The notes under the pieces were generated by a model. That model was not told where the DNA came from and searched no databases. It saw only the letters and a list, made by a program, of their open reading frames with translations. From positions 2,049,001-2,113,000 of the forward strand of contig NZ_AP027266.1 in NCBI RefSeq assembly GCF_036322625.1: a stretch of 64,000 nt of DNA, read 5' to 3'. Shown here in pieces: positions 2,450 through 18,722 of the stretch (positions are counted from its first letter, which is position 1; each line of letters opens with the position of its first letter). This DNA is from Roseicyclus marinus. GTDB taxonomy: Bacteria; Pseudomonadota; Alphaproteobacteria; Rhodobacterales; Rhodobacteraceae. The translations under genes and the position numbers were made by a program.

Positions 2450-3300
2450 CCCGTCACATGGGCAAAGCGCGATCCGTCGAGACTGCGATCAACGACAACA
2501 GAATCGTCAGGGACAAGGTCCACGGGCAATGCCGCCATCCGGGCGAACTTCTGCAACAGCTCGAACTTGCTGATGGGCGCAGACGCCACATGATAAAGAC
2601 CGCTCATCTGACTGTGATCGGTCAGCAAGGCAGAGATCACCCGTGTCAATTCCGCGGTCGTCAAACCGGAAAAAATCGCACGCCGATAGCCAGGAACCCG
2701 GCCCCGCTGCCGCAGAAACCATTCAATAAGACTTCGGAAGCGGGCCAATTCCAGCCCGATGATCGAAGTTCGCAGTGTAAGGCACCCCTCTCCCGTCACC
2801 TCGCCCAGAAGTTTCGTTCGCCCATAGGTATCATTCGCATCGGGCGTGTCATTTTCCGCATAGCCGCCCCGCGTCCCCGCAAAGACGCAATCGGTACTCA
2901 TGTGGACAAGGCGAATCCCGCGCTCGCCACAAGCCCGCGCAAGACGATGTGGCAACAGCGCGTTCAACTCGAGACTTTGGAGGACATCCGTCGAGATCGG
3001 ACGCTGCTTTACAATGCCGACGGCGTTGACAACGATCTGCGGTGCAACCTCGTCGAGAGTGCGCAGCAACACGCCCTCGGAGGCCATGTCGCGACCGAAC
3101 ACCGTATTTGTCGCTTCGAACAACCGCTGCGCCAGAGCCTCCGGTTTCTCGGAGCGGACGGATCCGACCACGTCGAAATTTCCGCGCAGACCCAGAAACA
3201 ACTGGTGCCCCAGCATCCCGTCCGCACCCAGAACCAACACGCGTTTCTTCAAGGCTTGTCCACCGTCATGATTGTGGCCCCGTCGTTGCATCAAGGTCAT
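2386..3300 (-). CDS. RmlD-like NAD(P)-dependent sugar reductase (SDR)
   Basis: An extended short-chain dehydrogenase of about 304 residues. The nucleotide-binding G-A-D-G-M-L-G is at residues 25-31, the S-T-D-C-V-F active-site strand at 135-140 and the Y-G-R-T-K catalytic pair at 159-163. This matches the dTDP-4-dehydrorhamnose reductase (RmlD) branch, which reduces 4-keto nucleotide sugars, but no rmlA/B/C lie nearby, so the substrate is open. It is the only gene on its strand within the first 20 kb cluster and overlaps the polymerase gene tail to tail. The first ATG is used here. A later start, for example TTG at 3252, would remove a 16-residue non-conserved extension. Confidence 0.75.
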   Translation of the reverse strand: MTLMQRRGHNHDGGQALKKRVLVLGADGMLGHQLFLGLRGNFDVVGSVRSEKPEALAQRLFEATNTVFGRDMASEGVLLRTLDEVAPQIVVNAVGIVKQRPISTDVLQSLELNALLPHRLARACGERGIRLVHMSTDCVFAGTRGGYAENDTPDANDTYGRTKLLGEVTGEGCLTLRTSIIGLELARFRSLIEWFLRQRGRVPGYRRAIFSGLTTAELTRVISALLTDHSQMSGLYHVASAPISKFELLQKFARMAALPVDLVPDDSVVVDRSLDGSRFAHVTGYDVPSWDAMLSELAGDLRAR

Positions 3301-3377
3301 GGCCTTGGCAACGACGATCTGCCCACCCTAGCTTCACACTTTACATTTCATGGCGGACAGGCAAGAAGCCGCGCGAC

Positions 3378-5012
3378 ATGAAGCCCGGCCTTCTGAACCC
3401 AATCTCGGCCCTGTTGCGACGACGCCACCTGCGCCGGTTGCTTGTGCTTCGCCGTGCTTGGCAAGAGGTGATCGATGGACCTGATCCCGATGCCGCCTCG
3501 CGCGTCGCGTCAGAGTTGTCACTTCATCGCGTGCCGGTCCCGCGCTGGCTGCTTCTGCTCTCGGGGCTGCCGCGTGAACTTGATGGCGCTGTCGAGATTA
3601 CCTTACGGCAGGCTTTCCTCACGCAGTTATATTCCCACCTCCTCCCCGGCCTCCTCCTTCTCGTAACGGATCGGGCGGTCGCGCTTCCGATACCTGCCGC
3701 TTGGCATGCGCCCCTTCTGGCGCATGGCTTTCCGCTCCGGACCCGAGGATCTGCCTGGCTCTGCGGCGGGATGGCGGTGACCGGACTGGCGCGCGGGATG
3801 CGGCAGATCATGCGCACCCTCATTTCGGCATCGCGGGGGCGCTTGTGGGCGGCACCGGGAGCCCCTTACGATGTGGCGGTCGAGCTGCCCGCAAGCTTCC
3901 TGCGCGGCACTGTTCACAATGCCGACTACAACTTTTCCGACTGGCTTCAACGCAGAGCGCCAGAAGGCGGGCTGTGGCTGCATAGCAACAGACGAGTGCC
4001 TGAAAAAGGACGCAAGATTGCTGAGTCGCCCTTGCCCGACTTTCCGGACCTGAGCGCGCGCGCGGCCTTTGGTTTCTCGGCGCTGCGCCTGACAGTTGGG
4101 GCAATGGTCGGATTGCTCTTCGCGCGCCCAGAGGGCGCCATTATCCTGCCGGAGACGGTTATGCTCGCCCATGCCCGGGCGGTTGGAGTCGATCGCCTCG
4201 CCCGGAACTACTATTTCGAAAATTCGCGTTGGTTTTCACGTCCGCTGTTTACCCGCTGGGCGGCGGGCGCTGCTGGATCACGGGCTGTGCTGGCGTTTTA
4301 CTCCACCAATACGGACGAATGCCTTCGCCTTGCCCCGTCGGATCGGATGCCCTGTTTCACTCCCGGATATCAGAGCATGGATTGGGACCGTTATCTGGTC
4401 TGGGACGACCACCAGGCCGATCTTCTCTCGGCCTGGGGTCACGAAAGGTTGCGCGCCTGTGTTGTCGGACCGGTTCCGCTTACCGATAGCACAGCCGACC
4501 TTCCACATATCCCGCAACGCAGCGTCGCTGTCTTCGATGTCGCGCCCTTGAGGCCCGCCGGACTCGCCGCGATCGGTCTGGTTTCGGAATATTATCGCGA
4601 CAGCATTGCAGCAGCTTTCCTCGATGATCTCCGCGAGCAATCACGTCACGCGGGTATCACGCTGGTCCTCAAACAGAAGCGAGAACGCAAAAGCAGCGCC
4701 CCCCCCCTTTACGAGGCCGCCTTGCGCAGGATGCAAAACGCCCCTCATGCGATCATCGTCGACCCGCAGATCAGCGCCGCGCGCGTGGTCGCAGCCTGCG
4801 CTGCGACCGTGTCCATGCCCTTTTCCAGCCCGTCGCTGATCGCGGCGCGGGAAGGCAAGCCGGCAATCTTCTATGATCCAACTGGTCGGCTGATCGCTTC
4901 GTCCCGCCAAGCTCATGGCCTTAATCTGATTCAGGGAACCGATGCGCTCGGGCATTGGCTGCAAGGAACCGTATCGGCGGGGATGGCCGCTCCATCGGGA
5001 GAAAATGAATGA
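3378..5012 (+). CDS. Surface-polysaccharide biosynthesis protein, PFTS-motif-like
   Basis: A 544-residue protein, probably cytoplasmic. The frame is open upstream, but the ATG at 3378 fits a protein starting MKPGLLNPISALL, and the upstream part is antisense to the convergent reductase. A late S-M-P-F-S-S-P tract (residues ~475-481) resembles the P-F-T-S signature of a family seen in surface-carbohydrate clusters. The C-terminal half looks like a glycosyltransferase-B fold. The exact reaction is unknown; transfer to or assembly of a glycan is inferred from family and context. The stop overlaps the next gene's start (ATGA), so the two are translationally coupled. Confidence 0.5.
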   Translation: MKPGLLNPISALLRRRHLRRLLVLRRAWQEVIDGPDPDAASRVASELSLHRVPVPRWLLLLSGLPRELDGAVEITLRQAFLTQLYSHLLPGLLLLVTDRAVALPIPAAWHAPLLAHGFPLRTRGSAWLCGGMAVTGLARGMRQIMRTLISASRGRLWAAPGAPYDVAVELPASFLRGTVHNADYNFSDWLQRRAPEGGLWLHSNRRVPEKGRKIAESPLPDFPDLSARAAFGFSALRLTVGAMVGLLFARPEGAIILPETVMLAHARAVGVDRLARNYYFENSRWFSRPLFTRWAAGAAGSRAVLAFYSTNTDECLRLAPSDRMPCFTPGYQSMDWDRYLVWDDHQADLLSAWGHERLRACVVGPVPLTDSTADLPHIPQRSVAVFDVAPLRPAGLAAIGLVSEYYRDSIAAAFLDDLREQSRHAGITLVLKQKRERKSSAPPLYEAALRRMQNAPHAIIVDPQISAARVVAACAATVSMPFSSPSLIAAREGKPAIFYDPTGRLIASSRQAHGLNLIQGTDALGHWLQGTVSAGMAAPSGENE

Positions 5013-5949: not shown

Positions 5950-6867
5950 GTGAACGGCCTACCAATTCTTGTCACCGGCGGAGCGGGTCTTCTGGGCCTG
6001 CACTGGGCTGCAGCATGCCGGGAAGGGCACCCGGTGACGCGCACACTCCATCAACGCAATCTCCCTCTCGATGGCACATCTGCCGTCTTGCTGGATCTCT
6101 CTGATCCTGACGCCCTGGACAGGGCCCTCGGCGCCGCGCGCGTCGGATGCGTTGTTCATACCGCAGGCCTCACCAGCGTCGAACGCTGTGAGCAAGACCC
6201 GGGAGCAGCCGAACACCATAACGTCAAGATCGCAGCTTGCGTCGCTGCCGCCGCGGAGCGCGCCGGGGCGGCGATGATCCACATATCGACCGATCACCTT
6301 TTTGACGGCAAAGCCGAGGCCTATGACGAGGATAGCCCCGTCTCGCCGATCAATGTTTATGGGGCGACGAAGGCACGCGCGGAAGAGGCTGTACTTCGCG
6401 CACATCCCCGGGCCCTCGTGTTACGGACGAATTTCTATGGGTGGGGACCACGTCATCGCCCCTCCTTCAGCGACTGGGTGCTTGACGCTCTCAGGCAAGA
6501 CCGATCCCTGCGCCTCTTCACGGACATACGATACACGCCGATTCACATCTCGGCCCTGATCGAGATCGGTATGCGACTTTGGGCCACGGGACAGTCGGGC
6601 ATCTTCCATGCAGTAGGCGACGACGTTCTAAGCAAGTACGCTTTCGGCGTGCATCTGGCCAAGGCATTCGGCCTGCCAACCAATCGAATTGAAGCTGCCC
6701 GCCTCGCCGACGAAACTGAACTTGTCCGCCGCCCCCTGTCGATGGCACTTTCCAACAGCCGCCTGCACAAAGCGCTCGGGCAGAGTCCGGGCAGCCTATC
6801 AAATCAACTGTCTCTCCTGCGTCATCAGGAGACCACCCCAGCGATCACGGAGATCCGCAACCTATGA
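5950..6867 (+). CDS. RmlD/epimerase-type SDR, first gene of the nonulosonate operon
   Basis: A 305-residue extended SDR with a GTG start. It has G-G-A-G-L-L-G at residues 10-16, S-T-D-H-L-F at 113-118 and the catalytic Y137-x3-K141. It lacks the look of the usual PseB dehydratase (a longer protein with its own glycine motif), so it does not obviously supply the missing UDP-GlcNAc 4,6-dehydratase step. It may reduce a keto-sugar in the same pathway. The stop overlaps the pseC start by four bases. The 137 bases before it hold no gene that I can support. Confidence 0.7.
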   Translation: MNGLPILVTGGAGLLGLHWAAACREGHPVTRTLHQRNLPLDGTSAVLLDLSDPDALDRALGAARVGCVVHTAGLTSVERCEQDPGAAEHHNVKIAACVAAAAERAGAAMIHISTDHLFDGKAEAYDEDSPVSPINVYGATKARAEEAVLRAHPRALVLRTNFYGWGPRHRPSFSDWVLDALRQDRSLRLFTDIRYTPIHISALIEIGMRLWATGQSGIFHAVGDDVLSKYAFGVHLAKAFGLPTNRIEAARLADETELVRRPLSMALSNSRLHKALGQSPGSLSNQLSLLRHQETTPAITEIRNL

Positions 6868-8036
6868 TTCCCTACGGTCGCCACCACATAGATGCGGACG
6901 ATATTGCCGCGGTCGTGGACATCCTGACCGGCAAGCCGCTGACCCAAGGTCCGATGATCGAGGCCTTCGAGGCCGCTGTTGCCGATTACGTCGGGGCCCG
7001 ATATGCGGTTGCGGTGTCCAGTGGCACCGCCGCGCTGCACCTAGCAGCGATGGCAGCGGACGTTGGGCCCGGGCGCTGTCTCGTGACGTCGCCAATTACC
7101 TTCGTCGCAAGTGCGAATGCAGCACTCTATTGCGGCGGACACGTGGCCTTTGCAGATGTGGATCCGCGCAGCGTTAACATGTCACCAGAGGCGCTGGGGG
7201 CGACCCTGCTGCGTCACCCGGAGACATCCGCTATTGTTCCGGTCCACTTTGGCGGATTGCCCTGCGACATGGAGTCGATCCGCGACCTTGCCCGCACGAG
7301 CGGCGCTCGTGTGATCGAGGACGCAGCGCACGCCTTGGGCGCGCGGCACGCTGACGGCGCACAGGTCGGAAGTTGCACCCACTCGGACATGACCTGCTTT
7401 TCCTTTCATCCTGTCAAGGCCATCGCTGCGGGCGAAGGCGGCATGATCACGACCAACGACCCTGCCCTTTATCGACGGCTCCTGCGCATCCGCAGCCACG
7501 GGATCAACAAGTTGGACGACCCGTTCCAACTGCCCGAAGCAGCCACCGAGGACGGCCAGCCCAATCCTTGGTATTACGAGATGCAGGAACTCGGCTACCA
7601 TTACAGAATAACCGACATTCAATGCGCTCTGGCGCTCTCGCAAATGAAGAAACTGGACGCCTTCATCGCTCGAAGAAGGACCCTTGCCAGCGTGTATGAT
7701 GCAGCCTTTGCGGGTTTTTCGAACCTTCGGCCGGGGCAACCCGACGGGCGGGATCGTTCGGGCCTGCACGTCTATGTGTTGCGAATCGATTTCGCCGCAA
7801 TCGGAAAGTCGCGCGGGCAGGTCATGCGCGAGCTGCGCGCGCGCGGCGTGGGCAGTCAGGTGCACTATATTCCCGTCACGATCCAGCCGCATTATCGCAA
7901 GATGGGCTTTGTCGCGTCCGATTGCCCTGCCGCGATGAGCTATTACGAGCAGGCCCTTTCCATCCCGCTGTTCTTCGATCTAACCGATGAGCAGCAGGCA
8001 GAGGTCATCGCTGCCCTTCGCGACGTTGTGGGATGA
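6864..8036 (+). CDS. pseC: UDP-4-amino-4,6-dideoxy-sugar aminotransferase PseC
   Basis: A 390-residue DegT/DnrJ/EryC1/StrS-family PLP aminotransferase. E-D-A-A-H-A is at residues 152-157 and the PLP lysine K185 lies in F-H-P-V-K-A-I. The run W-Y-Y-E-M-Q-E-L-G-Y-H-Y-R-I-T-D is a hallmark of PseC proteins. PseC transfers an amino group to the 4-keto carbon of the UDP sugar made by PseB, the second step of pseudaminic acid synthesis. It is coupled at both ends by ATGA overlaps. Assignment to PseC rather than a legionaminate or bacillosamine homologue rests on this signature and on pseG and pseI in the same operon. Confidence 0.85.
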   Translation: MIPYGRHHIDADDIAAVVDILTGKPLTQGPMIEAFEAAVADYVGARYAVAVSSGTAALHLAAMAADVGPGRCLVTSPITFVASANAALYCGGHVAFADVDPRSVNMSPEALGATLLRHPETSAIVPVHFGGLPCDMESIRDLARTSGARVIEDAAHALGARHADGAQVGSCTHSDMTCFSFHPVKAIAAGEGGMITTNDPALYRRLLRIRSHGINKLDDPFQLPEAATEDGQPNPWYYEMQELGYHYRITDIQCALALSQMKKLDAFIARRRTLASVYDAAFAGFSNLRPGQPDGRDRSGLHVYVLRIDFAAIGKSRGQVMRELRARGVGSQVHYIPVTIQPHYRKMGFVASDCPAAMSYYEQALSIPLFFDLTDEQQAEVIAALRDVVG

Positions 8037-8929
8037 AGATTGCCGTCGGAACCGCCCAGTTCGGGCTGCCCTATGGCATTGCCAACAGGGCCGGCAAGAC
8101 CCCGCGCGACGTTGCTGCATCAATCTTGGCGCGGGCAAAAGCGGCGGGAGCTCGGGTCCTCGACACTGCGATCGCCTATGGCGATGCAGAGACCGTACTC
8201 GGGGAAATCAACGCGGCTCAGGACGGCTGGCAGATCGTCAGCAAACTGCCGGCGTTGCCTGCCGATCTGCACCCTCGCGAGGTCGAAAACTGGTGTCGAG
8301 CGACGATCAACGCCTCTTTGGGTCGTTTGCGGACCGATCATCTCTGCGGTCTACTGCTTCATCGCCCTGATGACTTGCTGGGCCCGAAAGGTCCGGCCCT
8401 GGCAAACGCGCTGATCGCTCTGCGCAACGAGGAGATCGTCCACGCGACGGGGCTTTCCATCTATGGGCCTGACGACCTCGACGCCTTGCTGCCCGGAGGG
8501 CCTGCCGGCGCCCCCATTCCACTGGACCTTGTCCAGTCACCCGCAAGCCCGCTGGATCGCAGGCTGGAACAATCGGGCTGGGCGGAGAGGTTGGTGCAAT
8601 CTGGCACGCGCATCCATCTTCGCTCTGTCTTCCTGCAAGGCCTTCTGGTGATGCCCCTCTCGCAAGTGCCGCACCGCCTGTCGCATGGCACTTCGGACCT
8701 TCAAAGGTGGCACGATTGGCTGACCAGGGAGCGGGTCGATCCGGTGACGGCAGCCTTGCACTTCGCCCTGTCGCGTTCCTATGCCGAATACGTCGTCCTG
8801 GGCATGGACAGTTCTGAGCAACTGGAGCAGATACTCAACGCAACACAGATGCATTTCGTGATCCCGCCCGCCGATCTTCAAAGCACGAACTCCAACCTCC
8901 TCGATCCCAGAAAATGGACCGCACCGTGA
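8033..8929 (+). CDS. Aldo/keto reductase of the nonulosonate operon
   Basis: A 298-residue aldo/keto reductase. The N-terminal strand V-G-T-A-Q-F-G-L-P-Y-G is characteristic of AKRs in sugar-acid clusters. The catalytic residues D45 and Y49 lie in L-D-T-A-I-A-Y-G-D, and a lysine follows in I-V-S-K-L-P. Such enzymes reduce a carbonyl with NADPH. It starts inside the pseC stop codon and its end overlaps the next synthase gene by 16 bases. It is not part of the standard pseudaminate pathway, so it probably serves the second, divergent synthase branch. Confidence 0.8.
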   Translation: MKIAVGTAQFGLPYGIANRAGKTPRDVAASILARAKAAGARVLDTAIAYGDAETVLGEINAAQDGWQIVSKLPALPADLHPREVENWCRATINASLGRLRTDHLCGLLLHRPDDLLGPKGPALANALIALRNEEIVHATGLSIYGPDDLDALLPGGPAGAPIPLDLVQSPASPLDRRLEQSGWAERLVQSGTRIHLRSVFLQGLLVMPLSQVPHRLSHGTSDLQRWHDWLTRERVDPVTAALHFALSRSYAEYVVLGMDSSEQLEQILNATQMHFVIPPADLQSTNSNLLDPRKWTAP

Positions 8930-9942
8930 CCCAAACCGATGGCAGCAAGATTGAGATCATCGCCGAACTGGCACAGGGTTTCGAGGGCAAGCCGATGCAG
9001 GCGTCCCTCCTGATCAAGGCGGCGGCGCGGTCCGGCGCAGACGCTGCAAAGTTGCAGATGGTGTTTGCAGACGAACTCGCGACGCCCGGGTACAAATATT
9101 ACGACCTGTTTCGTTCACTTGAAATGAGCGACGAGGTTTGGGCTGGTCTGGTCTCCGAGGCGCGAGCTTACGGGATCGACCTACAGGTCGATATCTTTGG
9201 TCGACGCAGTCTTGCTCTTGCCGAAAAGATCGGCATCCGCACGGTCAAGCTTCATGGCACCGACATTGGTAATCCCGGCTTGCTTCGCGATGTCGCAGCG
9301 AGCGGCATCAATCGTGCACTGCTCGGTGCCGGCGGTGCGCATCGAGACGAGATTGCATCGGCCCTGGATATTCTCGCCGCCAAACAGGTGGTGGTGCTGC
9401 TTGGCTTTCAGGCCTATCCGACACCGACCGAAACAAACCAGATCGACAGAGTCCGCAGCCTTGGGGATGAATTCAAAGGCCGTTCGGGCCTGTCCATCGG
9501 CTTTGCCGATCATGCCGATCCGGAGAGCCCGCTTCGACTCGCGCTCGCAAGCGCAGCAGTTGGGGCTGGGGCAACGGTGATCGAAAAGCACCTGACGCTT
9601 GGCAGGAACATGGAGATCGAAGACTTCGAATCGGCGCTGAACCCGGATCAGTTCCAGGAATTTGTCGCCACCTTGCGCGGCGTGGCACAGGCTATGGGCG
9701 CCACCTCGGCTTCGGATGACTACGGCATGTCTGATGCTGAACTCGGTTATCGCAAAATGATCCGCAGGCACGTGGTTGCCGCCCGAGATCTCGCCGCCGG
9801 CGAAGTCATTTCGCCAGAGGAAATCGTACTCAAACGTGCCGATATCGAAGATCCGATCACTTCTCCGCTCGAAGTCATCGGTCGCAAATTGATTGCCTCG
9901 ATCAAGGCCAACAGTGCCTTGACCCGCAGCGACATGGAGTGA
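8914..9942 (+). CDS. Divergent NeuB/SpsE-family sialic acid synthase-like protein
   Basis: A 342-residue NeuB-family protein: a TIM-barrel part (residues ~10-270) followed by a SAF/antifreeze-like domain (~285-342). The two metal-binding histidines are kept (D-H200 in G-F-A-D-H, H226 in I-E-K-H). The usual N-H-N/N-H-G loop after E-I-A-E is replaced by Q-G-F-E-G-K-P, the K-I-A-S substrate motif by K-L-H-G-T-D, and the S-T-G motif by L-G-A-G-G. The pseI product in this operon has all the canonical versions. The family condenses phosphoenolpyruvate with a sugar; the altered loops suggest a different acceptor. A GTG at 8926 is an alternative start. Confidence 0.8.
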   Translation: MDRTVTQTDGSKIEIIAELAQGFEGKPMQASLLIKAAARSGADAAKLQMVFADELATPGYKYYDLFRSLEMSDEVWAGLVSEARAYGIDLQVDIFGRRSLALAEKIGIRTVKLHGTDIGNPGLLRDVAASGINRALLGAGGAHRDEIASALDILAAKQVVVLLGFQAYPTPTETNQIDRVRSLGDEFKGRSGLSIGFADHADPESPLRLALASAAVGAGATVIEKHLTLGRNMEIEDFESALNPDQFQEFVATLRGVAQAMGATSASDDYGMSDAELGYRKMIRRHVVAARDLAAGEVISPEEIVLKRADIEDPITSPLEVIGRKLIASIKANSALTRSDME

Positions 9943-10715
9943 TGAACGTGACACGCCGGCTCGTCGCCGTCATCGCCTGCCGCAGTCAGGGCAGCCGCCT
10001 CTACGGCAAACCAGTTCAAAATCTCGACGTGAGCAAAGGGGTCCGCATACTGGACAATATTGTCGACTGCCTTTCAAGCTTGCCACAGATCGACGAGATC
10101 GTGCTGGGCATCGCGGAGGGAGACGAGAACTCGGTCTATAGGCGCTTCGCCGAAGAGCGCGGGCTGCGTTTCGTGATCGGGGATGAAGTGGATGTCCTGG
10201 GGCGCCTCGTCGCTGGCGGACGGCTCGCAGGGGCAACCGACATTTTCCGGGTCACCAGCGAAAGCCCTTTTCCCTTCTTCGAAGCTGTGCCCGCCGCATG
10301 GACGACATACCTCAACTCGGGGGTGGACGCGCTGTTCCTTGACGACATCGTTGATGGCTGCGGTTTCGAGATCATATCACTTGCCGCATTGGAAACATCG
10401 CATCGTGAAGGAGAGGAGCGACATAGATCGGAACTTTGTACACTCTACATGCGGGAAAACAACAAACGATTCCAGATACTCCGGATCAGCGGCCCGCCAG
10501 AGCTCAATCGAAAGGATCTGCGATTGACGGTCGACAATCCCGAGGATCTGGTGGTCGCACGTGCAGTCTATCAGGCCTTTGTACAGCAGGCACCGCGCAT
10601 CCCGTTAGGGCACGTTGTTCGTTTCCTTGACGCGAATCCATCCCTCATCGCCTTGACCGCTCCCTTCGCCGAGGTCGGATACAAGACGATGTATGTCTGG
10701 GGAAAACAGCAATGA
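9942..10715 (+). CDS. SpsF/NeuA-like cytidylyltransferase
   Basis: A 257-residue nucleotidyltransferase-fold protein. The N-terminal A-C-R-S-Q-G-S-R-L-Y-G-K-P is a variant of the CTP-binding motif of CMP-sugar synthetases and SpsF proteins. L-R-L-T-V-D-N-P-E-D near residue 190 is typical of SpsF. It could activate the product of the divergent synthase or of PseI as a CMP sugar; no other PseF candidate is visible here. The ATG shares one base with the preceding stop, and a GTG just before it is an alternative start. The next gene overlaps its stop (ATGA). Confidence 0.7.
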   Translation: MNVTRRLVAVIACRSQGSRLYGKPVQNLDVSKGVRILDNIVDCLSSLPQIDEIVLGIAEGDENSVYRRFAEERGLRFVIGDEVDVLGRLVAGGRLAGATDIFRVTSESPFPFFEAVPAAWTTYLNSGVDALFLDDIVDGCGFEIISLAALETSHREGEERHRSELCTLYMRENNKRFQILRISGPPELNRKDLRLTVDNPEDLVVARAVYQAFVQQAPRIPLGHVVRFLDANPSLIALTAPFAEVGYKTMYVWGKQQ

Positions 10716-12052
10716 CGTCATCCTCCAACCGCCCATCCGCAACTGCCGGAACCGGTCAGGCACTTTGGCGACGCGCCAAGCAGATCATCCCTGGCGGCAA
10801 CATGCTGCTGTCAAAACGGGCAGAAATGCTGTTGCCCGAACACTGGCCGGCCTATTTCAGCCGCACCTCAGGCGCGACGGTCTGGGATATGGACGGCAAT
10901 CCGTTCACCGACATGTTCCTCATGGGTGTCGGAACCAACACTTTGGGCTACTCACACCGCGAAGTCGACGCCGCCGTCCTGAAGGTCGTGCAGGACGGCA
11001 ACCTTTCGACCTTCAACGCACCTGAAGAAGTCTGGCTTGCAGAACGCCTGATCGCGATGCATCCCTTCGCGGACATGGCCCGGTTCTGCCGCACCGGCGG
11101 CGAGGCGAATGCTGTCGCCGTTAGGATCGCCCGCGCAGCATCGGGACGCGACAAAGTGGCATTTTGCGGATATCATGGTTGGCATGACTGGTATCTTGCC
11201 GCGAACCTTGCACAAGGCGAGATGCTGGCGGGCCACTTGCTGCCTGGCCTTGAGCCCAATGGTGTTCCAAAAGAGTTGGCAGGGTCTGTCCGCCCATTCC
11301 CCTACAATGACATCGCGGCATTCGACGAAGCCGTTTCGGACCCCGAGGTGGGCGTGATCTTCATGGAAGTGTCGCGCAATGCGGGCCCCAACCCGGGCTA
11401 TCTGGAACATATCCGCGACATGGCGACCCGCAAGGGCATCGTCCTTATCTTCGACGAATGCACCAGCGGCTTCCGCGAGACTTTCGGTGGGCTCTACCTG
11501 AAGTATGGTGTCGAACCCGATATGGCGGTGTTCGGCAAGACCATCGGAAATGGCTACGCCATCACCGCGATACTTGGCCGCCGCGCCGTCATGGAGGCAG
11601 CGCAGACAACCTTCATCTCCTCTACTTTCTGGACGGAACGGATCGGCCCTGCCGCCGCGCTTGCCACACTCGATGTGATGCAGCGGGAAAGATCGTGGGA
11701 GCGCATAACAGCCACTGGCAACGCCATTCGCGACCGATGGACCCAACTCGCCGCCGAGGTCGGGATCACGCTTGACCACTGGGGCTTGCCTGCCTTGTGC
11801 GGCTTCACCATCCGCAGCCCCCATGCACAAGCCTACAAGACGCTGATCACGCAAGAAATGCTCGGGAAAGGCTGGCTTGCGGGCAATTCGATCTATTGCT
11901 CTCTCGCACATGACGAGACGACCGTGAACCGCTATTTCACCGATCTGGCCGAGGTCTGGGCCAAGGTCGCAAAATGCGAGTCGGACGGAACGGACCCGGC
12001 AACTTTGTTGGACGGCCCGGTCGCCCATAGCGGCTTCCGCCGTCTGAACTGA
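10712..12052 (+). CDS. HemL-like class III aminotransferase/aminomutase
   Basis: A 446-residue fold-type I PLP enzyme resembling glutamate-1-semialdehyde 2,1-aminomutase. It has A-K-Q-I-I-P-G-G-N near residue 22, D-E at 248-249 and the PLP lysine K276 in F-G-K-T-I-G-N-G. The place where aminotransferases carry S-G-T/S-E-A reads R-T-G-G-E-A-N. The location in a sugar-acid operon argues against haem synthesis. HemL-like genes next to SpsE/SpsF-like genes are a recurring association in surface-sugar loci, where they would transaminate or move an amino group on a sugar. Substrate unknown. Confidence 0.75.
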   Translation: MTSSSNRPSATAGTGQALWRRAKQIIPGGNMLLSKRAEMLLPEHWPAYFSRTSGATVWDMDGNPFTDMFLMGVGTNTLGYSHREVDAAVLKVVQDGNLSTFNAPEEVWLAERLIAMHPFADMARFCRTGGEANAVAVRIARAASGRDKVAFCGYHGWHDWYLAANLAQGEMLAGHLLPGLEPNGVPKELAGSVRPFPYNDIAAFDEAVSDPEVGVIFMEVSRNAGPNPGYLEHIRDMATRKGIVLIFDECTSGFRETFGGLYLKYGVEPDMAVFGKTIGNGYAITAILGRRAVMEAAQTTFISSTFWTERIGPAAALATLDVMQRERSWERITATGNAIRDRWTQLAAEVGITLDHWGLPALCGFTIRSPHAQAYKTLITQEMLGKGWLAGNSIYCSLAHDETTVNRYFTDLAEVWAKVAKCESDGTDPATLLDGPVAHSGFRRLN

Positions 12053-12057
12053 CGAAG

Positions 12058-13137
12058 ATGCGCGTCGCCTTCCGCGCGGATGGCGCAAGCCACATGGGCG
12101 GCGGGCACATAACGCGCTGCCTGGCGCTGGCCAATGCGCTTGGCGCAAACGGGGCCAAATGCCGATTTCTGAGCCGCCATCTGACGGACACCCTCGCCCA
12201 ACGGATACGCGACGCGGGGCATGATTTAGCAATGCTGCCCACCCGCCCGATCGAGGTTGAGAGCGGGCCACTCGCACCACCCCATGCCGATTGGCTCGGG
12301 ACAACATGGCGCGACGATGCGACGGATACTGCCGCCGCACTCAAGGAGACATGTGATTGGCTGATCGTCGATCACTATGCGATCGATGCCCGCTGGCACA
12401 CCGCCCTCAGAGCGAGGGCACGGAACATCCTCGTCATCGACGATCTGGCCGATCGACCGCTGTCTTGCGATGCGCTGCTTGATCCGAACTACCGCCCTCG
12501 GGGAGACAACCCTTTCGCCACCAAGCTTCCCGCAGGCTGTCTGCACCTTTCGGGACCACGCATGGCGCTCCTCGACCTAGCTTTCGCAAGAGCCCATCTT
12601 CGTGCGCAGGTCCGTAGCACGGCGCGACGTGCCTTCGTCTATCTCGGCACTACCCCTGCCGGCCTCCACATCCCCGTGCTCGATGCTCTTTGCGAAACCG
12701 ACCTGACTGCCGATCTTGTCTGCGCGTCCGCCGTCGCGGCGGATCCCCGCGTGTCAGCACATCCAGCCATCCTGTCGGGGCGCGTGAGTCTTCACGGCCC
12801 GCAACCGACGCTTCTTCCCTTCATGGAGAAAGCCGACTTGGCAGTGGGCCCGATAGGCACCTCGACCTGGGAGCGTTGCACCGTTGGCCTGCCGACGATC
12901 GCGGTTACCATTGCCGCAAATCAGGAAAGGATCGCAGCAAACCTAGCCGAAGACGGCCTTGTCATTTTGATAGGCCCATTGGAGAAAGTCCGAGACCAAG
13001 ATTACCTTTTGGCGCTTCAAAAGCTTACGCAACCGGATTGCCTGAGCCTGATGTCCCAGCGCAGTCTTGCACTCTGCGACGGGCGCGGGGTACAGGTGCT
13101 AACGGATGTGCTTGTTGGCAATTCACGGGGCGTCTAA
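12058..13137 (+). CDS. pseG: UDP-2,4-diacetamido-2,4,6-trideoxy-altropyranose hydrolase PseG
   Basis: A 359-residue protein with the PseG N-terminal signature F-R-A-D-G-A-S-H-M-G-G-G-H at residues 5-17 followed by T-R-C-L, and the GT-B style C-terminal part with G-P-I-G-T-S-T-W-E-R. I-D-D-L-A-D-R and D-P-N-Y in the middle are typical as well. PseG removes UDP from the diacetamido sugar to give the free substrate for PseI. It starts five bases after the previous stop. The family is well known and the match is strong. Confidence 0.85.
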   Translation: MRVAFRADGASHMGGGHITRCLALANALGANGAKCRFLSRHLTDTLAQRIRDAGHDLAMLPTRPIEVESGPLAPPHADWLGTTWRDDATDTAAALKETCDWLIVDHYAIDARWHTALRARARNILVIDDLADRPLSCDALLDPNYRPRGDNPFATKLPAGCLHLSGPRMALLDLAFARAHLRAQVRSTARRAFVYLGTTPAGLHIPVLDALCETDLTADLVCASAVAADPRVSAHPAILSGRVSLHGPQPTLLPFMEKADLAVGPIGTSTWERCTVGLPTIAVTIAANQERIAANLAEDGLVILIGPLEKVRDQDYLLALQKLTQPDCLSLMSQRSLALCDGRGVQVLTDVLVGNSRGV

Positions 13138-13178: not shown

Positions 13179-14084
13179 ATGGTCTGGAGCAATGTGGAAT
13201 TCGAAGGCCTCGCTCCAGAGGGCGTCGAGCGGACGGAAGATGGTTATTGGCGAGTAAAGAGCCCGCCCTCCCCGGAAGATCTGGCTGCCTACTATGCAAA
13301 GCGCTACTACCAAGAGGCGCGTGGCAGCTATGAACAGAGCTACAGCGCCGAGGAACTCCGGCATATCCGGGGAAAAATCGCCTTGCGCTGGACGATAGTG
13401 ACCGATGGCAGAAAGGATCCCGGCCGTCTTCTGGATGTCGGCTGCGGCGAAGGCTTCGTCCTCGCGCATGGAGCGGAGGCTGGGTGGGACGTTCGAGGGC
13501 TGGACTTCAGCGATGCCGGATTGCGAAGCCAAAATCCACGAATGCTTGATCGCCTCACCACAGGCGACCTGTTCGTTAATCTTGAGAATGAAATTGCACG
13601 TGGCGAACGATATGAAGTCGTATGGCTGCAGAACGTTCTCGAGCATGTGATTGACCCGTTGCGTCTGCTTGAGCGACTGAAGACTCTCACCATGCCTGGC
13701 GGGCGACTGGTTGTCACGGTTCCGAACGACTTTTCGCGGCTCCAGCATCTCGCCCTGACTACCGGCCGCATCGACCGCAATTTCTGGGTCGCCCTGCCCG
13801 ACCATCTCAGCTATTTCAGTGCCGACAGCCTGCGGCGCGTCTCGGAAAAGACGGGTTGGAGCTGTCGCAACCTCCTTGCCGATTTTCCGGTTGATTGGTT
13901 CTTGTTCAACGATCAGTCGAATTATGTGGCGGACCCGACCAAGGGAAAATCAGCGCATCATGCGAGGATCGCGCTGGAAAACCTTATTCTCGAAGCAGAT
14001 CCTCCCAGGATCCAGAACTTTTTTGAAAGCCTTGCCGATATGGGGATGGGCCGTGATCTGACAGCCTTCCTTGAACCTGTCTGA
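13179..14084 (+). CDS. Class I SAM-dependent methyltransferase
   Basis: A 301-residue protein with motif I L-L-D-V-G-C-G-E-G-F (residues ~87-96), D-F-S in the next strand, and W-L-Q-N-V-L-E-H-V at the motif IV position, as in Methyltransf_11/23 enzymes. It lies between pseG and a phosphoesterase in one co-directional array, with a GAGGG-type ribosome-binding site. Methylation of the nonulosonate or of another sugar in this glycan is the obvious possibility, but the acceptor is not shown by the sequence. Confidence 0.75.
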   Translation: MVWSNVEFEGLAPEGVERTEDGYWRVKSPPSPEDLAAYYAKRYYQEARGSYEQSYSAEELRHIRGKIALRWTIVTDGRKDPGRLLDVGCGEGFVLAHGAEAGWDVRGLDFSDAGLRSQNPRMLDRLTTGDLFVNLENEIARGERYEVVWLQNVLEHVIDPLRLLERLKTLTMPGGRLVVTVPNDFSRLQHLALTTGRIDRNFWVALPDHLSYFSADSLRRVSEKTGWSCRNLLADFPVDWFLFNDQSNYVADPTKGKSAHHARIALENLILEADPPRIQNFFESLADMGMGRDLTAFLEPV

Positions 14085-14098
14085 CCCGCCGAGGACCG

Positions 14099-14806
14099 AT
14101 GAAAATCCTTGTCCTTTCGGACATTCACGGGAATGCCACCGCGCTTGAGGCCGTGCTGCGTGCGGCAGCCTCGCGAGGTGCGGAGCACATCATCAACGCG
14201 GGCGACCTGATAGGCTATTACCACCAACCCGAGCGCGTCCTTTCGCTGTTGGCAGAATGGCCCATGGATTGCGTTCGTGGAAACCATGAGAACATGTTAC
14301 AACGCGCAATAAAGGACCCTGCATTCCTTGCCGATTGCACAGCGCGCTATGGAAGTGGCCTTGCCCGGGCGATCGAATGGCTACGTCCAGCGCAAATCGA
14401 ATGGCTTTTGGATCTCCCCGCCATCACGCAGTTCCAACGAGGTCGGTTTAGAGTCCTGCTTGCACACGGCACGCCAAAGGATGTGGATGAATATCTCTAT
14501 CCAGACGCCTCCGAGGAAAAGCTTGAACAGGTCGAAGCTGCCTGCGGTCAGGGCGTCGACTTGCTGGTCCTCGGCCATACGCATTACCAGAAACTCTGGG
14601 ATCGCTCTGCGCTGCGCATCCTGAACCCCGGCTCCGTCGGCCAACCGCGAGACCGCGTCCCCGGTGCAGCATGGGCCTTACTCGATACCGAAAGTGGAGA
14701 GATTGACTTGTATCGGCAAGCCTATGATAGCGTTCCAGTCGCGGACGCGGCTCGGCGCCTTGATCCCGCGCAGCCCTATCTTTGGACGGTCCTGGAACGT
14801 CGATGA
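14099..14806 (+). CDS. Calcineurin-like metallophosphoesterase
   Basis: A 235-residue YfcE/MJ0936-type phosphoesterase. All metal-binding signatures are present: D-I-H at residues 8-10, G-D-L-I (~39), G-N-H-E-N (~60), a histidine in L-A-H-G-T and G-H-T-H-Y (~159). The family hydrolyses small phosphomonoesters or phosphodiesters. It is followed by an ATP-grasp gene whose start overlaps its stop (ATGA), so the pair is probably made together. It could remove a phosphate from a sugar intermediate, although the canonical Pse pathway has no such step. Confidence 0.8.
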   Translation: MKILVLSDIHGNATALEAVLRAAASRGAEHIINAGDLIGYYHQPERVLSLLAEWPMDCVRGNHENMLQRAIKDPAFLADCTARYGSGLARAIEWLRPAQIEWLLDLPAITQFQRGRFRVLLAHGTPKDVDEYLYPDASEEKLEQVEAACGQGVDLLVLGHTHYQKLWDRSALRILNPGSVGQPRDRVPGAAWALLDTESGEIDLYRQAYDSVPVADAARRLDPAQPYLWTVLERR

Positions 14807-15750
14807 CAACAGTCTTCATCACAGCAATCGGAGGCGATGTGGCGCAAGGCGTTGCACGCGTCATCCGCGAATGTCGCCCGGACTGGCGGATCGTTGGGGC
14901 CGACATGGGGAACCACCATGGCGGCAGTCACTTTGTCGATCGTCTACTTGTCGCCCCTTCGGCAAACGATCCTGGCTATTCCGAATGGCTCGGAGCACAT
15001 TTGGAGCGGGAGGGCGTCACCTATTGCATCCCGATCAACGAGGCCGAGATCGAGAAGGTCGTCGCGCTGCCCTCTCCACTGCGCGTCGGGACGCATATGG
15101 TGAGCGCCGGAAGCAAGGCTGTTTCGGTCGCTGCCGACAAGGTCAAGACGGCGCGCTTCCTTGCCAGCCTCGGCATACCAGCACCATGGGTGGCCGAACG
15201 AGCCGAGGATGTGCCGCCAGACGCATTTCCTTGCATCTGCAAGCCTCGGGCTGGGGCTGGCTCCCGGGCCGTTTTCATCTGTACAGACGCTGAAGACGCG
15301 CGCTTTCTGCAAGCCCGTCATCCCGGATCCATGTTTCAAGAGCTGCTGCTCCCCGACGATGCCGAGGTGACTGTCGCGGTCTTTCGGGACAGGCTGGGCG
15401 CAACCGCGATGCTGCAATTGCAGCGGCGCCTCGTGAGCGGTGCGACAGCATGGGCCGAGGTAATTGACGACCCGTCGGTCACAGAACAATGTCTGCGGAT
15501 CGCAGAGGCGTTGGATTTGCGTGGCGCGATCAACGTCCAATTGCGGCGGACCGCTGATGGACCCCGCGTTTTCGAGATCAACGCGCGCTTTTCATCCACG
15601 GCGCTGATGCGCCACCGCCTCGGCTTCTCGGATGTGATCTGGGCACTCGATGATTTGTCAGGGTCACCGGTCACCACAAGCCACCCAAGACCCGGCCAAA
15701 GGATCGCCCGAATACAGGATGCTGTGATCCTGCAAACCGCAATCCTCTGA
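14803..15750 (+). CDS. ATP-grasp ligase (carbamoyl-phosphate-synthase-like)
   Basis: A 315-residue ATP-grasp protein. The ATG at 14803 is chosen because it puts T-T-V-F-I-T-A-I-G-G-D at the N-terminus and overlaps the previous stop. K-P-R-A-G-A-G-S is the ATP-binding lysine/glycine loop, and E-I-N-A-R-F-S near the C-terminus supplies the magnesium ligands. ATP-grasp enzymes of this type join a carboxylate to an amine through an acyl-phosphate. In this context an amino-acid or acyl group could be added to an aminosugar, or the carboxylate of a nonulosonic acid could be amidated. Substrate unknown. Confidence 0.75.
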   Translation: MTTVFITAIGGDVAQGVARVIRECRPDWRIVGADMGNHHGGSHFVDRLLVAPSANDPGYSEWLGAHLEREGVTYCIPINEAEIEKVVALPSPLRVGTHMVSAGSKAVSVAADKVKTARFLASLGIPAPWVAERAEDVPPDAFPCICKPRAGAGSRAVFICTDAEDARFLQARHPGSMFQELLLPDDAEVTVAVFRDRLGATAMLQLQRRLVSGATAWAEVIDDPSVTEQCLRIAEALDLRGAINVQLRRTADGPRVFEINARFSSTALMRHRLGFSDVIWALDDLSGSPVTTSHPRPGQRIARIQDAVILQTAIL

Positions 15751-15759
15751 AAGCATGAC

Positions 15760-16809
15760 ATGACAATCACCATTGGCCCCCACTCCGTCGGCCCCCGACA
15801 TCGCCCCTTCATCATTGCCGAGATGTCGGGAAACCATAACCAGTCCCTCGAACGCGCACTGGCCATCGTGGATGCCGCCGCCGCCTCGGGAGCGCATGCG
15901 TTGAAGCTGCAGACTTACACTGCCGACACGATCACCTTGGACGTGCGGGGTGGAGAATTCGACATCGAGGATGCAGCCAGCCTCTGGAAGGGGCGCAACC
16001 TGCACGACCTCTATCGCGAAGCCTCGACCCCATGGGAATGGCACGCCGCGATCATGGAACGGGCGAAGAGTCACGGTATGGCCTGCTTCAGTTCCCCCTT
16101 CGACGAGACGGCCATCGACTTTCTCGAAACCCTTGATGTTCCGGCCTACAAGATCGCCTCTTTCGAGAACATCCACCTTCCGCTGATCCGCAAGGCCGCC
16201 TCCACCGGCAAGCCGCTCATCATTTCCACGGGCTTGGCAAGCCTCGCTGAACTGGACGAGGCCGTGACAGCCGCGCGCGACGCCGGCTGTCGCGACCTTA
16301 TCTTGCTGAAATGCACCTCAACCTATCCCGCCACACCCACCAACACCAACATTGCCACCATCCCAAACATGCGGGATGTCTTCAGCTGCCAGATCGGTCT
16401 TTCGGATCACACGATGGGCGTTGGGGTCGCGGTCGCGGCGGTCGCCCTCGGCGCGACGGTGGTTGAAAAGCACTTCACCCTGTCACGCGCCGAAGGAGGT
16501 GTCGATAGCGCCTTCTCGCTGGAACCATCCGAACTCGCTTCACTGGTAACAGAAACGGAACGCGCCTGGCAGTCCCTTGGGCAGGTCACCTATGGGCCGA
16601 CCGAAGCCGAGAAGAAATCTCTCGTCTTTCGGCGCTCCCTGTATGTCGCAGAAGATATGAAGACAGGTGATAAATTCGACCGCAGCAATCTGCGCATCGT
16701 ACGACCGGGCCTCGGCCTGCCGCCGAAACTCATTGACAACATCCTCGGCAAGCGCATTACGCGAGACACCCGCAAGGGCACGCCCCTTGCTTGGGATCTG
16801 ATCGGGTGA
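15760..16809 (+). CDS. pseI: Pseudaminic acid synthase PseI
   Basis: A 349-residue NeuB-family synthase with all canonical motifs: N-H-N at 25-27, K-I-A-S at 131-134, S-T-G at 156-158, metal ligands H217 (S-D-H-T) and H238 (E-K-H-F), and G-G-V-D-S-A-F-S around 247-254, typical of PseI. A SAF domain closes the protein. It condenses phosphoenolpyruvate with the sugar released by PseG. It is the second NeuB-family protein in the operon and serves as an internal comparison for the divergent one at 8914-9942. Confidence 0.88.
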   Translation: MTITIGPHSVGPRHRPFIIAEMSGNHNQSLERALAIVDAAAASGAHALKLQTYTADTITLDVRGGEFDIEDAASLWKGRNLHDLYREASTPWEWHAAIMERAKSHGMACFSSPFDETAIDFLETLDVPAYKIASFENIHLPLIRKAASTGKPLIISTGLASLAELDEAVTAARDAGCRDLILLKCTSTYPATPTNTNIATIPNMRDVFSCQIGLSDHTMGVGVAVAAVALGATVVEKHFTLSRAEGGVDSAFSLEPSELASLVTETERAWQSLGQVTYGPTEAEKKSLVFRRSLYVAEDMKTGDKFDRSNLRIVRPGLGLPPKLIDNILGKRITRDTRKGTPLAWDLIG

Positions 16810-16817
16810 CCGGGACG

Positions 16818-17333
16818 ATGTGGGATGATGTAGATATCCGATCCGCACGATTCCACTTGCGCCCGATCCGTGAGGATGATGTGACGCAGCGCTATCTTGA
16901 CTGGTTTTCAGGTCGAGGTGCTGCTCAAATCTCACGTCATCCCGGGTCCTTGGATGCACTTCGCGTCTATGTCCGCGAGCGCAGAAATCGTCCGGATGTC
17001 CTTTTCCTTGCAATTCGATTTGCAGAAACCGGTTTACATATCGGAAACCTCAAGTTCGAACCGATCGACCATGAGCGTGCGGGGGCAGTCATGGGCATCT
17101 TCGTGGGTGATGAATCGTGGCAAGGAAAAGGTGTAGCGACGGAAACCATTCGCGCTGCAGCAGACTGGCTGCATGACCGACTGGGCTTGCGTTACCTCTG
17201 GCTTGGTGTGGCCAACGACAACCTCGCTGCCCTACAAGCCTATCAACGAAGTGGATTTGTGAAGAAGATCAGCCCATTGATCCCCGACAACCCGGATATC
17301 CATACCATGGAACTGGAACTATGGCGCCGTTAA
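16818..17333 (+). CDS. GNAT N-acetyltransferase, PseH-like
   Basis: A 171-residue GNAT protein: the N-terminal L-R-P-I-R-E-D-D strand, the acetyl-CoA loop W-Q-G-K-G-V-A-T-E (~105-113) and the C-terminal A-L-Q-A-Y-Q-R-S-G-F are all present. PseH acetylates the 4-amino group of the PseC product, and this is the only acetyltransferase of that kind in the operon, so it is the natural candidate. The ATG eight bases after the pseI stop is chosen; earlier GTG/TTG codons would overlap pseI. It closes the operon. RimJ/RimL-like activity is the alternative. Confidence 0.65.
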   Translation: MWDDVDIRSARFHLRPIREDDVTQRYLDWFSGRGAAQISRHPGSLDALRVYVRERRNRPDVLFLAIRFAETGLHIGNLKFEPIDHERAGAVMGIFVGDESWQGKGVATETIRAAADWLHDRLGLRYLWLGVANDNLAALQAYQRSGFVKKISPLIPDNPDIHTMELELWRR

Positions 17334-17422
17334 TCCCCGTAACAATCGGCAGGGGTTGAAATTCAGTCAAGTTAGGGGCATGCACCAGCCGAGGGCATCG
17401 CCCTAAAGTGCCGATCGGAGGA

Positions 17423-18310
17423 ATGGTGACCACGGACAAAATCGTAGAAGTCGGTTATGGCAATGTCGCCCGCGTTCGGATCGGCAAGGGGCTTCCGCTT
17501 GCCTACATCGGCGGGCCTTGTGCAATCGAATCCCGCGACCACACGTTTCGAATGGCCGAGGCCATAGGCGAAATTTGTCGCACATTAGAGATCCCATGGA
17601 TATTTAAGGCTTGCTACGACAAAGACTGCCGCTCCTCTGCGGACAGTTTCCACGGTGTCGGCCTTGAGGAAGGTCTCCGGATCCTTGCCGATGTGCGCGA
17701 TGCCTTTGGTATCCCCGTAGTGTCGGACTTTTCCGATCCTGCTTGGGGTCCTGCAACGGGCGAAGTTTGCGACCTTGTGCAGGTGCCAGCCTATCTTTGC
17801 CGACAGACTTCGGTCCTGCGCGCCGCCGCCAAGACGGGCCGTCCGGTTCATCTCAAGAAGGGACAGTTCATGTCCCCTTGGAACATGAAGAATTCCGTCC
17901 GCAAGCTTGAAGCTTTTGGCTGCGTCGGAACACTCCTCGCGGATCGCGGCACCTTTTTCGGCTACAACATGCTGGTCAACGACATGACCTGCTTCCCGAT
18001 CATGGCCCGCACGGGCTGTCCTGTCTGCTTTGACGCAACCCATTCGATCCAGATGCCGACATCCATGGGCAATGTCTCGGGCGGGCAACGTGAGTTCATT
18101 CCCGCGCTCGTTCGCGCAGCTGTGGCTTGCGGCGTTCAGGCGCTTTTCATGGAAACCCACGACAATCCCGCAAAGGCATTGTCCGACCCGAACACGGTGC
18201 TGGACATCAAGCATCTGAAATTCGTGCTCGCACAGGCCAAGCGCGTTCATGAAACCCGGCTCAGCCTCTTGCAGGAATTCGGAGAAGACAATGTCCACAC
18301 CGGTCAGTGA
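17423..18310 (+). CDS. kdsA: 3-deoxy-8-phosphooctulonate synthase
   Basis: A protein of about 295 residues with the KdsA motifs G-G-P-C-A-I-E-S, F-K-A-C-Y-D-K-D (normally F-K-A-S-F-D-K-A), R-G-T-F-F-G-Y-N and F-D-A-T-H-S-I-Q. It condenses phosphoenolpyruvate with arabinose-5-phosphate to form Kdo-8-phosphate. The start is uncertain: GGAGGA touches the ATG at 17423, so GTG at 17426 or 17408 may be used. A 73-base gap separates it from the pse operon, so it may begin a new transcript. In a glycan locus it may be an accessory copy supplying Kdo for a capsule or linker, not lipid A core. Confidence 0.85.
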   Translation: MVTTDKIVEVGYGNVARVRIGKGLPLAYIGGPCAIESRDHTFRMAEAIGEICRTLEIPWIFKACYDKDCRSSADSFHGVGLEEGLRILADVRDAFGIPVVSDFSDPAWGPATGEVCDLVQVPAYLCRQTSVLRAAAKTGRPVHLKKGQFMSPWNMKNSVRKLEAFGCVGTLLADRGTFFGYNMLVNDMTCFPIMARTGCPVCFDATHSIQMPTSMGNVSGGQREFIPALVRAAVACGVQALFMETHDNPAKALSDPNTVLDIKHLKFVLAQAKRVHETRLSLLQEFGEDNVHTGQ

Positions 18311-18722
18311 GCAGCGCCGCGTTTCGGATGTCGCCCTTGGTCTGGACCGTTTTCCGGTCCTGCGCCCGAACGATCTGTTGAAGACCGCACTGGAACAGAT
18401 GACCGCGAAGCGCCTCGGCATCGTTTGCATCACGAATGAAGCCGGGCTGCTTGAGGGCATCTTCACGGACGGAGACATCCGCCGCCATCTGTTGACTGTC
18501 CAGCGCCCCTTTGCAGCCCTCTTTTCCGACGATATCATTGATCACGCCCAGCGCAAGCCGACGACGGTGCCGGGAGACAGTTCCCTGCGCGCCGCGCTGG
18601 ATGTGATGGCGCGACTGCAAATCTGGGACCTCCCGGTGGTTGATCCCGCAGGGCGGCTGATCGGCCTGCTGCATCTTCACCCACTCGTCGAGGCGTTGAT
18701 GACCGCCTCCAACCAAGACTGA
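18291..18722 (+). CDS. Free-standing tandem CBS protein, KdsD-like C-terminal half
   Basis: A 143-residue protein made of two CBS motifs (about residues 10-65 and 75-140). The tracts L-G-I-V-C-I, G-I-F-T-D-G-D-I-R-R and L-P-V-V-D-P-A-G-R-L-I-G-L-L-H-L-H are those of the regulatory CBS half of arabinose-5-phosphate isomerase (KdsD/KpsF). The catalytic SIS domain is absent and nothing upstream encodes it, because the gene starts inside kdsA with a 20-base overlap and a GGAGAAG ribosome-binding site. It therefore looks like a deliberate stand-alone nucleotide-sensing module, not a broken gene. It may bind KdsA or a separate isomerase; that is inference. Confidence 0.7.
   Translation: MSTPVSEQRRVSDVALGLDRFPVLRPNDLLKTALEQMTAKRLGIVCITNEAGLLEGIFTDGDIRRHLLTVQRPFAALFSDDIIDHAQRKPTTVPGDSSLRAALDVMARLQIWDLPVVDPAGRLIGLLHLHPLVEALMTASNQD

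Follow-up and report, generated by a model that had tools for sequence, protein, structure and literature searches.

Nonulosonic acids form coats on flagella, capsules and O-antigens; which acid a given strain makes is predicted from its gene content. In the pseudaminic acid pathway, the products of pseBCFGHI lead to pseudaminate activated with cytidine monophosphate (CMP). In the flagellin glycosylation islands of Aeromonas subgroups IA-IE the gene order is pseC, an aldo/keto reductase (AKR) gene, pseF, a class III aminotransferase (AT) gene and pseG, and the AKR/AT pair has no assigned function (PMC7874193). In Bacillus subtilis the NeuB-type synthase SpsE and the SpsF-type cytidylyltransferase (CT) SpsF form a pair that makes CMP-legionaminate (PMC7439481). 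In the pse cluster of Vibrio B9-25K2 the proposed substitute for the missing NeuA/PseF is a CT of the SpsF type that is fused to an AKR (PMC7371886). Here, we describe a pse operon of Roseicyclus marinus that carries four genes, encoding an AKR, a NeuB-type synthase (named NeuB2 in the following), an SpsF-like CT and an AT, between pseC and pseG. It lies in a stretch of 64,000 nucleotides (G000:C1:2049001-2113000, hereafter the window) of a genome that consists of a single contig of 3.55 Mb and is 99.93% complete. Prediction from gene content would fail twice here, since a near-complete pathway has no pseF and a second synthase comes from an unstudied clade. We assign a probability of roughly 0.45 to the overall explanation that seems best to us, namely that two pairs of enzymes from a surface-polysaccharide locus work together to give a second or altered nonulosonic acid.

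A four-gene module in the place of pseF

The operon is located on the plus strand in the order RmlD-like short-chain dehydrogenase/reductase (SDR), PseC, AKR, NeuB2, CT, AT, PseG, methyltransferase, phosphoesterase, ATP-grasp protein, PseI and GNAT acetyltransferase. The genes on which the argument rests are (window coordinates):

5950..6867, plus strand, RmlD-like SDR reductase (PF04321, 160 bits; TIGR01214, 154 bits, under the cut-off of 224)
6864..8036, plus strand, pseC (TIGR03588, 480.6 bits, over cut-off)
8033..8929, plus strand, AKR (PF00248; catalytic tetrad D44/Y49/K71/H110 complete)
8914..9942, plus strand, NeuB2, NeuB-type synthase with a C-terminal SAF (antifreeze-like) domain (PF03102, PF08666)
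9939..10715, plus strand, SpsF-like CT (GTG start, or ATG at 9942; assigned by family profile)
10712..12052, plus strand, class III pyridoxal phosphate (PLP)-dependent AT of HemL-like fold (PF00202, 125 bits; PLP lysine K276, D248)
12058..13137, plus strand, pseG (TIGR03590, 201.9 bits, over cut-off)
15760..16809, plus strand, pseI, the canonical second synthase (TIGR03586, 497.6 bits, over cut-off)

The original prediction of four coupled genes between pseC and pseG was borne out. The four open reading frames were confirmed at these coordinates, and PseC, PseG and PseI scored over the curated cut-offs (481 vs 423.5, 202 vs 153.6 and 498 vs 340 bits, respectively), whereas none of the four inserted products exceeded the cut-off of any equivalog listed. 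The start of each module gene overlaps the preceding stop, the AKR start overlapping the end of pseC, and pseG begins 5 bp past the AT stop; therefore, the module and its flanks are read as one translationally coupled operon. Gene order is otherwise that of relatives. In a congener (G007, L052) with the arrangement pseB-pseC-pseF-pseG-fmt-pseI, a single gene, pseF (330 bits vs a cut-off of 205.7), separates pseC from pseG, and it is this position that the module occupies in the window. A genome-wide search with the PseF model (TIGR03584) gave nothing over 205.7, the best match being a KdsB-type gene at C1:3384653 with 39.8 bits. Nor did any PseF exceed the cut-off in the two further carriers of the full module described below, whose genomes are unfinished. 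Because PseF over the cut-off is missing and the module stands in its place, the CT is the natural candidate for the CMP-pseudaminate synthetase, and we regard it as likely that it has taken over this role. The CT sequence alone had no Pfam match, but its family profile matched PDB 6oew, a "cytidylyltransferase", with 193 bits and KdsB with 62 bits. Its structural model is of moderate quality (predicted local distance difference test, pLDDT, 66) with 6oew as top Foldseek match, and R15, R20, K24, D199 and D203 are invariant in 13 CTs.

The described systems resemble the locus in part. The Aeromonas islands also have an AKR gene after pseC, followed by a CT and a class III aminotransferase, but use a canonical pseF and, as described, contain no NeuB2-type gene. 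In B. subtilis SpsE the KIAS and SDH signatures are canonical, whereas NeuB2 falls into another clade. For the Vibrio cluster neither a NeuB2 nor an AT is mentioned.

NeuB2 retains the metal site but differs around the acceptor

NeuB2 matched PF03102 (122.4 vs a gathering score of 22.1 bits) and the SAF domain PF08666 (37.9 vs 21 bits) and stayed under the equivalog cut-offs of NeuB_NnaB (148.8 vs 399.65 bits) and PseI (113.6 vs 340.25 bits). Structure prediction, suggested originally as a check, gave a PseI/NeuB-like fold: the AlphaFold model (pLDDT 85.6) matched NeuB, PseI and SpsE best, with template modelling (TM) scores of 0.72-0.81, except for 1vli (0.64). At three motif sites NeuB2 reads QGFEG, KLHGTD and GAGG, where PseI of the same operon reads GNHNQ, KIASFE and STGL. 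The original prediction had described this as loss of the N-H-N, K-I-A-S and S-T-G motifs. The differences are real, recur in orthologues of 61-63% identity that come from two orders or classes other than the window's own and are largely clade-wide, but "loss" goes too far, since the lysine of the KIAS site remains (K112; the acid is now D117 and the serine is gone) and the NHN histidine is missing solely in the three closest members, most of the clade retaining it.

Both predicted metal histidines, H200 and H226, are present, together with E18, K46, K112, E224 and R308, which are further residues of phosphoenolpyruvate-condensing synthases; D237 is likewise kept. In an alignment to Neisseria NeuB, NeuB2 keeps the equivalents of E25, K53, Q55, K129, Y186, H215, E234, H236, D247 and R314, among which we take Lys53, His236 and Asp247 to be active-site residues. 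Ligand contacts of Neisseria NeuB are made by Glu25, Gln55, Lys129, Tyr186, His215, Glu234 and Arg314 (PMC6795526). In the same alignment, the loop bearing Asn74 in the Neisseria enzyme is deleted in NeuB2, Asn184 is replaced by Q166, which is invariant across the clade, and Phe288 by Arg. Changed acceptor loops beside an intact metal site, as originally proposed, are therefore seen, although the substitutions probably extend to the donor side. The pattern of residues supports a metal-dependent synthase with an altered acceptor pocket and possibly an altered donor pocket too, and we somewhat favour the view that NeuB2 is an active synthase that works on a different acceptor.

NeuB2 belongs to a distinct clade with an SpsF-like partner

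In a maximum-likelihood tree, nine NeuB2-type proteins were set apart by a branch with a Shimodaira-Hasegawa-like approximate likelihood ratio (SH-aLRT) of 100. Hidden Markov models of the clade and of canonical NeuB/PseI separated the nine by more than 200 bits, a value that is a description and not a test, since the models were trained on most of the sequences scored. Most members replace KI[AG]SxE by K-[LI]-x-x-x-D and STGM by G-G-[AS], and have a GxQx[YF]PT motif with invariant Gln and a short insertion following DH. Literature searches, mostly without subscription journals, found no paper naming this clade, which is apparently distinct and undescribed.

An SpsF-like CT is encoded at all nine loci. 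It is fused to NeuB2 in two (L036 of genome G266 and L051 of G521), adjacent in six (the window, L003, L004, L037, L039 and L068) and about 2 kb away in one (L050). A canonical NeuB or a shortened NeuB-like gene was present at 9/9 NeuB2 loci but at only 3/25 control loci (Fisher p = 4e-6, indicative only, as the control loci were not chosen blind and were unequal in length). At two loci, L050 and L039, a NeuA/PseF-like CT accompanies the canonical NeuB in addition to the NeuB2/CT pair beside it, which suggests two separate products. Radical SAM-like proteins are encoded next to or near the NeuB2-clade genes at 4/9 loci (L036, L039, L050 and L068); the copies of L068 and L039 are 61% identical, and we noted no such gene in the operon of the window.

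The neighbourhood survey, also suggested with the original prediction, recovered the full four-gene set in two other genomes. In the gammaproteobacterial Gamma 3 symbiont of Olavius algarvensis (L004), pseC-AKR-NeuB2-CT-AT precedes an acyltransferase gene and pseG. In a metagenome-assembled genome (MAG) of the Hyphomicrobiales (L003) the locus starts at the AKR gene and reads AKR-NeuB2-CT-AT-pseG-fmt-pseI-pseH; its AT is 65% identical to that of the window. Compared with these two loci, NeuB2 is 61-63% identical, the CT 63-67%, PseI 65-72% and PseC 66%, while AKR (~42%), PseG (~36%) and PseH (43-45%) change faster. NeuB2 is on par with PseI and PseC and so shows the evolutionary rate of a core enzyme. 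That the motif changes are random decay in a degenerating gene was rejected on the grounds of 61-63% identity across classes, the PseI/PseC-like rate and monophyly.

Among 100 related genomes no NeuB2 orthologue was found in close relatives. Furthermore, the window genome and the Hyphomicrobiales MAG have a polysaccharide block in common that comprises an HpcH aldolase (73% identity), two SDRs (66-70%), a KdsB-like CT (64%), a glycosyltransferase (63%) and a polymerase (40%). The patchy spread of NeuB2 together with this block points to a large surface-polysaccharide locus that spread by horizontal transfer. Class searches around G521 and G541 gave zero new clade members, and a match of just 21 residues in the first genome scan (L005) was taken as chance.

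The reductase and the aminotransferase accompany nonulosonic acid clusters

The AKR tetrad is kept in seven sequences of nonulosonic acid clusters, that of the window included; with the KidO model the AKR scored 129 bits, below the cut-off of 244. The AT (PF00202, 125 vs 30.5 bits) has K276 and D248, which are kept in 11 sequences, and scored under the cut-offs of hemL (174.8 vs 527.3 bits) and NF004856 (237.5 vs 486 bits). It had been called an aminomutase; it is better described as a sugar aminotransferase of nonulosonic acid clusters. A role in heme or tetrapyrrole synthesis was rejected because the hemL score is far too low and homologues occur in nonulosonic acid clusters, in CT fusions and in a nan operon.

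AKR and AT accompany such clusters with or without NeuB2. Apart from Aeromonas, the pair is listed with a nonulosonic acid cluster in the gene table of Legionella serogroup 6/12 (PMC3694923); gene content of both genera was taken from papers. In G266 a cluster (L088) reads PseB-PseC-PseH-AKR-AT-PseG-NeuB, and AKR and AT are also part of a nonulosonic acid cluster in G267. CT-AT fusions were found at two loci, L087 and Pseudosulfitobacter L049 (AT domain 65% identical), AT together with a CT, and no AKR noted, occurs in G208 and Halorussus, and Priestia has AKR and an SDR but no AT. The view of the four genes as one inseparable insert had to be given up, since AKR+AT and NeuB2+CT occur apart in G266, Pseudosulfitobacter, Aeromonas and Priestia. 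Its partners may decide what becomes of a ketone produced by the AKR, which would be an amine with AT and an epimer with SDR. That AKR and AT act on a nonulosonic acid is, in our judgement, likely.

A query with the AT against 289 alphaproteobacterial genomes revealed four further places in three genomes, 3/4 of them in NeuB-containing clusters. The fourth (L084:9877-13721, G221) is a sialic acid catabolic operon with a NanA-like protein, NanE, a ROK kinase and an ATP-binding cassette (ABC) transporter; its AT homologue is 57-58% identical, which suggests uptake and deamination of amino-nonulosonic acids.

Proposed pathway and its alternatives

In the proposed pathway, NeuB2 would condense phosphoenolpyruvate with an acceptor sugar that differs from the usual PseI substrate. 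A candidate acceptor is a 4-hydroxy hexose, which could arise from the 4-keto intermediate through the RmlD-like SDR; the window, L004 and G266, which encode this SDR, are all NeuB2 carriers. The SpsF-like CT would convert the resulting nonulosonic acid to its CMP form and also stand in for PseF. The AKR, acting as a dehydrogenase, would oxidise a hydroxyl of the nonulosonic acid or of a precursor, and the AT would turn the ketone into an amine, yielding an amino-nonulosonic acid. By analogy, in Shewanella KdnB, KdnA and KdsB lead to 8-amino-3-deoxy-D-manno-octulosonic acid (8-amino-Kdo), in which oxidation is followed by transamination and then by CMP activation of an ulosonic acid, but on an eight-carbon substrate and by enzymes of other families, KdnB being an iron alcohol dehydrogenase. 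KdnB catalyses the first step of 8-amino-Kdo formation (PMC5125639), and an 8-amino-pentadeoxy nonulosonic acid is a natural product of Flexibacter maritimus (PMC3210612); for these reasons C8 is the favoured site of amination. Catalysis by NeuB2, its acceptor, the action of the CT on pseudaminate and the aminated carbon are what we infer from these comparisons. The bacterium probably makes an additional or altered surface sugar, and the product of NeuB2 may, judged from sequence, be a sugar acid not yet described. Only tentatively do we suggest that NeuB2 represents a functionally new branch of NeuB which builds such an acid beside the canonical synthase with a dedicated cytidylyltransferase and possibly an altered phosphoenolpyruvate site; an 8-amino or a 7-hydroxy relative of pseudaminic acid would be possible examples. 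Calculated masses are 333.154 for the 8-amino-8-deoxy form and 293.111 for the 7-hydroxy form (C11H19NO8), compared with 334.138 for Pse5Ac7Ac. Naming the clade and its CT partner makes the function directly testable, and the proposal offers a concrete hypothesis for the AKR/AT pair of dozens of Aeromonas strains.

Several observations weigh against this pathway. Ser/Thr hydroxyls are gone in NeuB2 (T110->D93, S132->G115, S154->G138, T155->A139 and S213->A198), several of them at positions that presumably line the phosphoenolpyruvate site, and the donor reaction could be weak or different. The AT of L004 is only ~27% identical to that of the window and belongs to another subfamily (NF004856, 570 bits, over the cut-off of 486). 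In G266, AKR+AT lie beside their own NeuB and a PseF-like CT, and a distance of ~20 kb separates them from the fused NeuB2-CT; the two pairs hence need not have a common product. A Priestia plasmid (L071:7963-8934) encodes an SpsF-like CT with an N-terminal SAF-like domain and without the NeuB barrel. In NeuB the SAF domain caps the active site; the Priestia protein looks like the remnant of a NeuB-CT fusion, and the barrel is thus not always needed. Amination at C8 is a weak point too, being argued by analogy, and we put it at somewhat less than even odds. Finally, a KdsB-like CT (G000:C1:2039656) could activate pseudaminate instead of the module CT. It is part of a further ulosonic acid-type cluster (G000:C1:2037311-2042474; L045:8212-13375), ~6.5-12 kb upstream of the window, that encodes an HpcH/HpaI aldolase, two SDRs, the KdsB-like CT and a KdsC-like phosphatase.

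This second CT is central to the strongest competitor, itself rather unlikely, in which two unrelated pathways are housed in one operon: AKR and AT would modify pseudaminate, for which the activating enzyme would be the KdsB-like CT, whose gene lies ~15 kb upstream of pseC, and NeuB2 with its CT would produce another nonulosonic acid, with the 4-hydroxy hexose of the RmlD-like SDR as a possible starting sugar. The distribution fits, as the KdsB-like CT occurs in 0/100 sampled relatives, yet the L003 genome encodes it (64%) and a diverged counterpart (29%) follows 8 kb downstream of L004, and the SDR of the window, L004 and G266 was not seen in pse clusters lacking NeuB2 such as L049 and L052. 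However, the aldolase, SDRs and phosphatase around the KdsB-like CT look like a Kdo-type pathway of its own, and it reached just 23 bits with the PseF model. Slightly less probable still is that NeuB2 is a pseudo-synthase that serves the CT in a non-catalytic or regulatory role, with PseI making the sole nonulosonic acid, the CT activating and AKR and AT decorating it. The missing Ser/Thr residues on the phosphoenolpyruvate side, a single CT for two synthases in the operon, the NeuB2-CT fusions and the barrel-less SAF-CT of Priestia, which lies in a pse cluster with an AKR, would agree with that; yet NeuB2 retains the metal ligands, both lysines, E18, D237 and R308, is conserved like PseI and PseC, and in L050 and L039 stands with its CT beside a canonical NeuB that has a CT already. 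An ordinary legionaminic or neuraminic acid branch, with NeuB2 as LegI/NeuB and the CT as SpsF, is improbable: the B. subtilis pair provides a precedent and NeuB_NnaB is the best curated model for NeuB2, but it scored 149 bits against a cut-off of 400, residues of the canonical signatures carried by SpsE and NeuB are changed, and the operon showed no genes dedicated to legionaminate. Two co-operating pairs remain our preferred reading.

Flanking genes

The RmlD-like SDR gene overlaps pseC by 4 bp, and counterparts adjoin pseC in L004 (46%) and pseB in G266 L088 (37%); it probably encodes a 4-keto-sugar reductase of the same operon. The remaining annotated operon genes are:

13179..14084, plus strand, class I methyltransferase, variable accessory gene (PF13489, 77 bits)
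14782..15750, plus strand, ATP-grasp protein, variable accessory gene (PF15632, PF02655)
16791..17333, plus strand, PseH-like GNAT acetyltransferase (PF13302, 65 bits; PseH model 21 bits vs a cut-off of 93)

Between pseG and pseI, L003 and L004 have a formyltransferase-like gene instead of the methyltransferase. Directly 3' of the operon, a gene for a KdsA-type 3-deoxy-octulosonate-8-phosphate synthase (17408-18310) and a CBS-domain gene (18249-18722) were named by reading the sequence; the former raises the number of phosphoenolpyruvate-condensing synthases at the locus to three. The nearest PseB in the genome is a CapE/FnlA-like dehydratase (G000:C1:2045736-2046701; L045:16634-17644) that scored 324 bits with the PseB model, under the cut-off of 407.75, and its gene stands before a WecB-like gene, so that a single dehydratase may supply this operon as well as a further 6-deoxyhexosamine pathway. 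A predicted protein without Pfam match (window 3042-5012) is 29% identical over 438 residues to a G266 protein (L036:12-1307) encoded ~7.6 kb upstream of the NeuB2-CT fusion, and is a candidate transferase for the NeuB2 product.

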